From contig NZ_CAKLBV010000005.1 of assembly GCF_920984675.1 (NCBI RefSeq), positions 62,001 to 126,000 of the forward strand: DNA of 64,000 bases. The letters run 5' to 3'. How positions within the stretch are numbered: the first letter of the stretch is position 1; the number at the start of each line of letters is the position of its first letter. Of this stretch, positions 11,370 through 13,253 are shown in pieces. The position numbers were made by a program, and so were the translations under genes. Source of the stretch: Methylobacterium sp. Leaf118. GTDB lineage: Bacteria; Pseudomonadota; Alphaproteobacteria; Rhizobiales; Beijerinckiaceae. Below the pieces are notes generated by a model, which worked only from the letters and a program-made list of their open reading frames with translations, searched no databases and was not told where the DNA came from.

Positions 11370-11564
11370 CTAGGGCGCCGACGTTTCCGGCGTGTTGCTG
11401 GGGACCGGCGGGGACCGACCGGGCTCCGGCGGATGCCCCGCCTGGTACCAGGGCAGAAGGTCGCGGAACCCCTGGTCCACCGGCGTCACCGGCACGGCGG
11501 CGCGCAGCAGGAATCCGGCGATTCCGGTTCCAAGCGCGAGCAGGAGGCAGGTGATCAGACGCAT
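11370..11564 (-). CDS. Small single-span membrane protein, unknown function
   Basis: A 64-residue protein with a hydrophobic N-terminus (MRLITCLLLALGTGIAGFLL) that could be a signal anchor. The tail is Pro-rich with VDQGFRDLLPWYQAG in the middle. I do not recognise a family. The start codon lies in a 14-bp direct duplication (GATCAGACGCATG at 11553-11565 and again at 11567-11579), so a second ATG sits 14 bp upstream out of frame. It lies between the efflux operon and the candidate small RNA. Confidence 0.55.
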   Translation of the reverse strand: MRLITCLLLALGTGIAGFLLRAAVPVTPVDQGFRDLLPWYQAGHPPEPGRSPPVPSNTPETSAP

Positions 11565-11692
11565 GGGATCAGACGCATGAGCCGAGGGAAACCTCACGGC
11601 ATCGCCCTGGCCAGGATGACGGATGGACGAGAGAGACGGCCGGGATCCCGCGCCGGTTTCCCGAAGAGCGGATACGAAGAAGAGCGGACACG

Positions 11693-11720
11693 AAAAAGGC
11701 CGCCGTGTCGAGCGGCGGCC
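11693..11720 (-). terminator. Intrinsic terminator of the small RNA
   Basis: Perfect 8-bp stem GGCCGCCG (11720-11713) and CGGCGGCC (11705-11698) with a 7-nt loop, followed on the minus strand by TTTTT (11697-11693). The plus strand lacks a comparable U-tract, so the direction is clear. Confidence 0.8.
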
Positions 11721-11805
11721 TCTTCTGTACACGACCGGACCGGCCTCCACTTGGGAGAAACGAGGGGGCGAAGTCCCTCCCCGGTGGTGGCCGGTCCGAC
11801 CGTGT
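11693..11805 (-). ncRNA. Candidate unannotated small RNA, about 113 nt
   Basis: Read on the minus strand, a 17-nt arm (11805-11789) is complementary to a 17-nt arm (11745-11729) with nine uninterrupted G+C-rich pairs (GGACCGGCC/GGCCGGTCC) and a closing ACACG/CGTGT helix. The loop between them contains C-rich, anti-Shine-Dalgarno-like tracts (CCCCCUCGUUUCUCCC). An intrinsic terminator follows: GGCCGCCG/CGGCGGCC and five U residues. A sigma70-like promoter sits at the right distance upstream. No minus-strand reading frame there looks coding. It is not SRP RNA, since the GGAAGCAG-type loop is absent. It is shorter than, and unlike, typical 6S RNA. Function unknown; a trans-acting riboregulator is the likeliest reading. 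Confidence 0.7.
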
Positions 11806-11809
11806 CCTG

Positions 11810-11838
11810 AACATGCGCTCACGACTGACGATCGTCAA
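11810..11838 (-). promoter_or_regulatory. Sigma70-type promoter of the small RNA
   Basis: On the minus strand the -35 element TTGACG (11838-11833) and a -10-like CATGTT (11815-11810) are separated by exactly 17 bp. The predicted start falls at 11805-11803, at the first base of the small RNA's long helix. The -10 match is modest. Confidence 0.6.
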
Positions 11839-12095
11839 CATTCGTCAGCGCCCGACAGGCGACTTTCGCGCAGATTTCGCCCCCGAACAGCAGGATCGTG
11901 TGCGTGAACGCACTTCGAATGTCGCGGTCGCGAAGATTTCGACCAGTTCTCCCGCGCCGGGCCTTGTCCTTCTCCGACGGGACACAAGCAGCGGGCCAGT
12001 CTCCAAAGTGGACAGTGTCGGGACGCCTTGCGGGGCCTATCGGGGGCTTGGCAGGGGCCTTGGAGCCGGCTTCGGGTTCTGCGAAGACGCCCGCC

Positions 12096-13253
12096 ATGGA
12101 CCGCACCTTCAATCCCGTCTTCGCCGAGCTGCCCGAGACCGTGTTCGAGAGGATGTCGCGCCTCGCCCGCGAGCGGGGGGCGATCAATCTCGGCCAGGGT
12201 TTTCCCGACGGGCAGGGTCCGGACGACGTGCGCGCCGCCGCCGCCCGGGCCCTGGAGAACGTCAGCAACCAGTATCCGCCGATGATGGGGCTGGCGTCGC
12301 TCCGCGCCGCCATCAGCGCCCATTACCGGCACCATCAGGGCCTCGAACTCGATCCCACGAGCGAGGTGATGGTGACCTCCGGCGCCACGGAGGCGTTGGC
12401 CGGCGCCCTGATGGCGCTCCTGCGCCCGGGCGACGAGGTCGTGCTGTTCGAGCCGATGTACGACGCCTACCTGCCGCTGGTGCGTCGCGCCGGGGGCGTG
12501 CCGCGCTTCGTCACCCTGAAGCCTCCCCATTTCCGCCTCGACGACGCGGCCCTCGCCGCGGCCTTCTCTGAGCGCACCCGCGTCGTCGTCCTCAACGACC
12601 CGCTCAACCCGAGCGCCACGGTGCTGCCGCAGGAGGATCTCGCGCGTCTGGCCGCCTATTGCTGCCGCTTCGACGCGATCGCGCTCTGCGACGAGGTGTG
12701 GGAGCACGTCGTGTTCGACGGCCACCGCCACCGGCCGCTGATGGCGCTGCCGGGGATGCGCGAGCGCACCGTCAAGATCGGCTCGGCCGGCAAGATCTTC
12801 AGCCTGACGGGCTGGAAGGTCGGGTTCGTGATGGCCTGCGAGCCGCTGATGCGGGTGCTGTCGCGGGCGCACCAGTTCCTGACCTTCACGACGCCGCCGA
12901 ACCTGCAGGAGGCCGTGGCCTACGGGCTCGCCAAGGACGACGCCTATTTCACCGCGATGCGCGCCGGCCTCGCCCGCTCGCGGGACCGGCTCGCGGCGGG
13001 GCTGGCCGGACTCGGCTTCACCGTTCTGCCGAGCGCCGGCACCTATTTCCTCTCCATCGACATCGCCGCGTGGGGCGAGGACGACGAGACCGTCTGCCTG
13101 CGGATGGTCCGGGAGCACGGCGTCGCCGCCATCCCGATCAGCGCGTTCTATCAGGAGGGGGCGGTGCGCAGCCTCGTGCGCCTGTGTTTCGCCAAGACCG
13201 ACGCGACCCTGGATGCGGCCCTGGAGCGTCTGGCCAGAATGCGGCCGGCGTGA
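12096..13253 (+). CDS. PLP-dependent class I/II aminotransferase
   Basis: A 385-residue fold-type I aminotransferase. INLGQGFPDG near residue 31, the substrate-arm NQYPPMMG, SGATEA, a shortened NDPLNPS loop (usually NxPxNP), CDEVWEH, and the Schiff-base lysine K233 in SAGKIFSLTGWKVG are all visible. The pattern matches the kynurenine/methionine (YbdL-like) aminotransferase group; the exact amino-acid substrate cannot be read from sequence. ATG 12096 is chosen because homologous sequence begins at FNPVFAELP. It is divergent from the small RNA. A dyad motif TCTCCAAAGTGGACA lies about 80-100 bp upstream. Confidence 0.88.
   Translation: MDRTFNPVFAELPETVFERMSRLARERGAINLGQGFPDGQGPDDVRAAAARALENVSNQYPPMMGLASLRAAISAHYRHHQGLELDPTSEVMVTSGATEALAGALMALLRPGDEVVLFEPMYDAYLPLVRRAGGVPRFVTLKPPHFRLDDAALAAAFSERTRVVVLNDPLNPSATVLPQEDLARLAAYCCRFDAIALCDEVWEHVVFDGHRHRPLMALPGMRERTVKIGSAGKIFSLTGWKVGFVMACEPLMRVLSRAHQFLTFTTPPNLQEAVAYGLAKDDAYFTAMRAGLARSRDRLAAGLAGLGFTVLPSAGTYFLSIDIAAWGEDDETVCLRMVREHGVAAIPISAFYQEGAVRSLVRLCFAKTDATLDAALERLARMRPA

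Follow-up and report, generated by a model that had tools for sequence, protein, structure and literature searches.

The anti-Shine-Dalgarno sRNAs of rhizobia, such as NfeR1, carry C-rich single-stranded motifs, which have been proposed to mask ribosome sites. The genus Methylobacterium serves as a model for methanol use and for life on plant leaves. PmaR of Agrobacterium tumefaciens, as portrayed in the available excerpts of its description, is an intergenic sRNA of a narrow species group, with a long stem and an exposed C-rich terminal loop that is taken as the target-binding site (PMC6234868). GsrN of Caulobacter is part of the sigma-EcfG stress response; homologs detected by BLASTn were confined to Caulobacteraceae (PMC5869019). 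For Methylobacterium, the matches listed from the open-access literature include no report of the RNA described here or of any native trans-acting sRNA. The parts of PMC6520949 and PMC9029176 that are available mention no native Methylobacterium sRNA, and the word 'sRNA' is absent from the main text of the M. extorquens DM4 dRNA-seq paper (PMC9320726).

The locus considered here lies on the minus strand of a 64,000-nucleotide stretch of DNA from Methylobacterium sp. Leaf118 (the window). Comparative sequence analysis indicates a genuine structured RNA gene, specific to the genus and new to Rfam, which is probably an independent Methylobacterium trans-acting sRNA gene of the C-rich-loop kind. 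Its long stem, exposed C-rich terminal loop, intergenic position and narrow distribution resemble those of PmaR as described in PMC6234868. The Methylobacterium RNA is distinguished from PmaR by an 11-nt loop with the fixed core GCCCCCUC, and by adjoining an aminotransferase gene on one side and, on the other, a small ORF followed by an efflux operon. GsrN, placed in the sigma-EcfG response by PMC5869019, differs from it in promoter type, as in the Methylobacterium promoter the TTGAC -35 box is enclosed in a dyad.

All elements named in the original prediction were found in register from 11838 to 11693, or from 11847 when the dyad is included (Table 1). The TTGACG-17-CATGTT promoter elements are where they had been placed, as is the perfect 8-bp terminator stem with its five U. 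The hairpin and its C-rich loop are likewise present as located, but the helix proved longer than described, with 16 uninterrupted base pairs (G-U included) at its base instead of nine and two further helices beneath the loop. The dyad over the -35 box and a conserved small ORF about 130 nt downstream of the RNA had both been missed.

Table 1. Features of the RNA locus and its downstream ORF (window coordinates).
Feature	Position	Strand	Description	Basis
Candidate regulator site (dyad)	11826-11847	minus	near-palindrome TGACGAATGTTGACGATCGTCA over the -35 box	conservation, arm analysis
Promoter	11810-11838	minus	-35 TTGACG 11838-11833, 17-nt spacer, -10 CATGTT 11815-11810	sequence, conserved alignment
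Long hairpin of the RNA	11730-11804	minus		MFE fold, covariation, model matches in 106/111 genus genomes
Apical loop	11762-11772	minus	UUCGCCCCCUC, C-rich, 11 nt, presumed target-pairing site	loop conservation
Intrinsic terminator	11693-11720	minus	8-bp stem GGCCGCCG/CGGCGGCC 11720-11698, TTTTT 11697-11693	sequence, fold, terminator scan
Conserved small membrane-protein ORF	11370-11564	minus	64 aa, possibly expressed by read-through	67/84 loci

The predicted RNA (11804-11693) folds with a minimum free energy of -75.5 kcal/mol versus -45.6 kcal/mol (sd 3.8) for shuffled sequences (z -7.9), and none of 200 shuffles reached as low a value. All 30 sequences that were folded singly (25 full RNAs and 5 hairpins) adopted the long hairpin with an 11-nt loop, while the tip of one further locus, L064, folds differently. 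The stable stem exposing a conserved C-rich loop that marks sRNAs of the PmaR/GsrN kind is thus present. As the pattern used to find the named loci contained the core GCCCCCTCG, loop invariance was checked on loci found by other means: 77 loci were entered, 4 could not be parsed and 16 were identical to others, and C-NNN-GCCCCCTCG occurs in the loop of all 57 distinct loci that remained. Open frames cross the RNA stretch mechanically; the gaps in the alignments and the compensatory changes in the stem argue against any of them being a conserved ORF.

Compensatory changes in homologous loci, on which the original prediction had been staked, are abundant. In 84 aligned loci (83 distinct), comprising 83 judged homologs and the window's own locus, 91.5% of cells are standard pairs versus 77.0% after shuffling. 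Double changes occur in 19 of the 24 pairs and fill 303 cells, compared with 109 (sd 9.4) in shuffles, which related sequences can beat without any structure, and at most 81 with slid partners, a control that preserves relatedness but over which the tested structure is favoured, having been derived from the same alignment. A smaller alignment of 25 out of 30 loci, from which L017, L018, L027, L029 and L030 were left out because their terminators differ, has double changes in 21 of 36 pairs. The excess of G-U cells (342) over A-C cells (50) fixes the strand of the RNA, and the hairpin model also scores higher on the minus strand than on the opposite one.

A covariance model of the hairpin matched 106 of 111 Methylobacterium genomes (the genus including Methylorubrum) at E ≤0.001, with one copy in each. 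At least one of the five genomes missed, G035, retains the dyad, with the loop sequence beginning 74 nt on, and so probably holds a diverged copy. A 201-base DNA query found matches in 32 of 61 genomes, all 32 of the genus, in a set made up of the window's own genome, 36 others of the genus and 24 of other genera in the order. The same restriction is seen with the covariance model: across 297 genomes of the order its 6 matches are all of the genus, and 25 of the 27 genomes matched at E ≤0.05 among 298 of the family belong to it. In the family search, the two genomes outside the genus were judged not homologous, and this judgement applies to the matches L078, L079 and L080 (E 0.02-0.04). Convincing copies outside the genus were thus not found among the genomes searched, with the proviso that searches over more than 40 genomes ran under stricter filters and could have overlooked distant copies.

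A pattern search of named genomes returned 112 stretches, of which 83 were judged homologs (80 titled Methylobacterium or Methylorubrum, three titled Beijerinckiaceae or Methylobacteriaceae) and the other 29, which bear the titles of other organisms, were dismissed as chance. The model was used to score 51 of the 112, namely all of L170-L201 and, from L090-L169, the 19 whose titles name other taxa. L200 was kept on its model score of 68.6 bits; L102 has no model score. In both, the match lies at the end of the stretch. Taken as chance were a Microvirga match (L131, 18.5 bits, E 0.6), for which a remote relationship is possible, the weak match L176 (21 bits, E 0.18), and a Rhodoblastus pattern match that the model did not recover. 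By these sequence searches, the RNA is genus-specific and single-copy in the genomes matched.

An Rfam search, which had been proposed along with the original prediction, returned only tRNA at threshold in the window, and no family reached threshold at the RNA locus. The same holds for 20 homologous loci, sRNA families included, which separates the Methylobacterium RNA from NfeR1-type sRNAs. The earlier judgement that it is neither SRP RNA nor 6S RNA was borne out: 6S RNA (RF00013) has no match in 11560-12100 at E ≤10 and is found instead in G000 on contig C28 (80.5 bits), while bacterial SRP RNA has no gathering-threshold match in the window and none at E ≤10 in 11560-12100. Weak matches at the locus include CC1840 (19.7 bits versus a cut-off of 50) and mir-3158 (24.2 versus 97).

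Support for the promoter is conservation in the aligned sequences and not the generic promoter scan, which listed no promoter at the RNA locus. In other clades the aligned loci carry a -10 box of the TAGGTT or TAACTC type. According to the available part of the DM4 study, -10 boxes of M. extorquens are without the conserved -7 T of E. coli, a remark that the promoter at the RNA locus fits (PMC9320726). The genus form of the dyad, TGACGANNGTTGACNNTCRTCA, was located in 34 of 41 genus genomes; 33 of these carry a single copy and one carries two. The window's own genome has the dyad at a single site even when up to 3 mismatches are allowed. Its left arm, TGACGA, is found in 73 of 73 distinct loci; the search pattern for named loci had included the right arm and not the left. 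Across the same 73 loci no clear covariation between the arms was seen, most arm positions being invariant: three outer positions show small excesses (49 versus 42, 33 versus 28, 24 versus 18) and one inner position shows a deficit (33 versus 40). A transcribed hairpin was judged unlikely for this element on these grounds. The fixed left arm and the lack of clear arm covariation point to a DNA site and not to an RNA hairpin, and on sequence the dyad looks like a site for a candidate regulator having few other sites.

The terminator is among 2 sites listed by a terminator scan of 801 bases, where 0.5 would be expected. By a crude criterion (fold ≤-13 kcal/mol before TTT), 73 of the 84 loci have a strong counterpart, at least 4 of these being doubtful, and 11 have none. 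Members of the aquaticum group have a terminator that ranges from weak or doubtful to absent, with a weak U tract. A separate case is the clade of L017, L027, L029 and L030, in which the hairpin-adjacent terminator is replaced by a different, farther one while the main hairpin and loop are kept. The U tail is generally short, with five U at the studied locus and three or four in many others, unlike that of typical Hfq-bound sRNAs. On sequence alone, the RNA has the promoter and intrinsic terminator of its own that belong to a C-rich-loop sRNA.

Sequence comparison establishes the structure, the conserved loop, the promoter dyad, the terminator and the genus-wide single copy; from these we infer transcription of the RNA, a regulator at the dyad, and pairing in trans with its outcome. 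A sigma-70-type promoter would make an RNA of about 112 nt, consisting of one long hairpin followed by the intrinsic terminator, and this promoter is probably controlled by a putative regulator bound at the near-palindrome that spans the -35 box. The stem would present the 11-nt loop with its fixed C-rich core. By its anatomy, and as in PmaR and GsrN, the loop most likely pairs with G-rich stretches of the GAGGGGGC type in several mRNAs, whether close to the ribosome site or elsewhere, and such pairing would change translation or stability of the target mRNAs.

Candidate targets were sought in a strict form, GAGGGGGC at 2-9 nt before ATG, in the genomes of three Methylobacterium species (G000, G008 and G024). 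These contain 38, 49 and 35 such places (122 in total), compared with 6, 14 and 40 for a reversed-pattern control. A script scan of all 122 stretches gave eight homologous pairs across genomes, and no start site among them was judged to be common to different genomes under this narrow pattern (ATG only, three genomes). One trio (L205, L282, L303) is common to all three, with identical DNA around the motif and frames of just 32-37 aa, and was interpreted as lying antisense to a conserved gene, presumably hemB-like. The remaining pairs were short or repeat-like, had a frame open upstream of the ATG, or differed before it. For PmaR, the portion of the paper available places most predicted interaction regions away from the ribosome site (PMC6234868). 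Against the sRNA reading stand this lack of a shared start-site target in a narrow search, the short U tail, the terminator gaps, and the ORF that follows in 67 of 84 loci without a clear promoter between, an arrangement that also fits a leader.

Alternatively, but less likely, the RNA could be a cis-acting 5' leader that uses its hairpin and terminator to govern read-through into the small ORF, and perhaps into the efflux operon behind it; this reading is unlikely. A profile built from 14 loci and then applied to the 84 detected the ORF in 67, and it lies on the strand of the RNA in at least 66 of these. It encodes a small membrane protein of about 45-64 aa (consensus MRxRTCLLLALxxxxLGLxLRLAVPVTPVD) next to an MdtAB-type efflux operon and matches nothing in Pfam at E ≤0.1 or in NCBIfam at E ≤0.01. 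Its start is typically 50-180 nt past the terminator, and several hundred nt farther in L099. A leader would be in keeping with the extorquens group, where the gap is short and has no clear promoter, and with the aquaticum group, where about 50 nt separate the hairpin from the start of the ORF and the U tract is weak. The best sub-threshold Rfam match is also an attenuator leader, Thr_leader (RF00506), at 26.4 bits versus a cut-off of 55. Thr_leader or a similar attenuator was rejected on this score below gathering and on the loci without a detected small ORF (a count that concerns the small ORF only).

Seventeen of the 84 loci have no detected ORF, two of them with less than 200 nt of downstream sequence and 15 with at least 1,100 nt. 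Reading 14 of these 15 by eye likewise showed no such frame. All 15 keep the RNA, and 12 keep a strong terminator, which suggests that the RNA is probably independent and not only a leader. Nor did inspection by eye reveal an alternative antiterminator pairing; the core of the loop stays fixed while the terminator arms change, and pairing of the loop with the terminator was rejected in the same way. By eye, no clear promoter lies between terminator and ORF except for a candidate in the mesophilicum group, where a conserved GCTCTGGTAGCGT stretch in the gap could be a promoter element and would then count against a leader. Two genomes of another genus encode a relative of the small protein (E 9.6e-10 and 9.1e-4), and no match to the RNA above 10.1 bits occurs in the surrounding 3 kb. 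With RNA and ORF each found without the other, the two appear to be neighbours that are not bound together. A leader for the efflux operon is further weakened by the separate conserved element before the efflux genes, which may be their own promoter.

That element, AGCAACA..GAAAC..CGCATTG, lies between the end of the small ORF and the efflux adaptor (window about 11399-11354, minus strand). Its first part is present in 66 of 77 loci, including loci without a detected small ORF, and it is possibly a promoter or operator of the efflux operon. In ten loci inspected, with neighbour genes recognised by eye from their similarity to window proteins, an aminotransferase gene is upstream and divergent in nine and an RND adaptor is downstream in all ten. 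The window's own neighbour proteins score as PRK08912 aminotransferase, MdtA/MuxA adaptor and MdtB/MuxB permease. The other-genus relative of the small protein in L332 has a different neighbourhood.

Both products could also come from one locus, a terminated trans-acting sRNA and, by read-through, the small membrane protein, under one regulator. RNA and ORF are indeed conserved side by side behind one dyad in most of the 84 loci, but their pairing is not obligatory, as each part occurs without the other, and we consider this arrangement very unlikely. Its fuller form, a genus-wide dual locus in which a dedicated regulator on the near-unique dyad would govern both a trans-acting RNA and a read-through membrane protein serving the MdtAB-type pump, is speculative and also improbable. 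Least probable is that the RNA binds or titrates a protein through its loop instead of pairing with mRNA: the core of the loop does not vary among the loci examined and the narrow search found no shared start-site target, but there is no candidate protein, and the C-rich loops of comparable sRNAs act by pairing in the accessible portions of their descriptions (PMC6234868, PMC5869019).

For the preferred reading of an independent trans-acting sRNA, conservation in stem, loop and promoter is strong enough for immediate testing, and the published M. extorquens DM4 dRNA-seq map (PMC9320726) may confirm the 5' end of the RNA with no further experiment. In one species, at L080 1501-1577 (G011:C10:13694-13770) and with no promoter dyad in the 70 bases before it, a second hairpin combines a different stem sequence with the same loop core, GGGGCTTTGCCCCCTCGCCCC.
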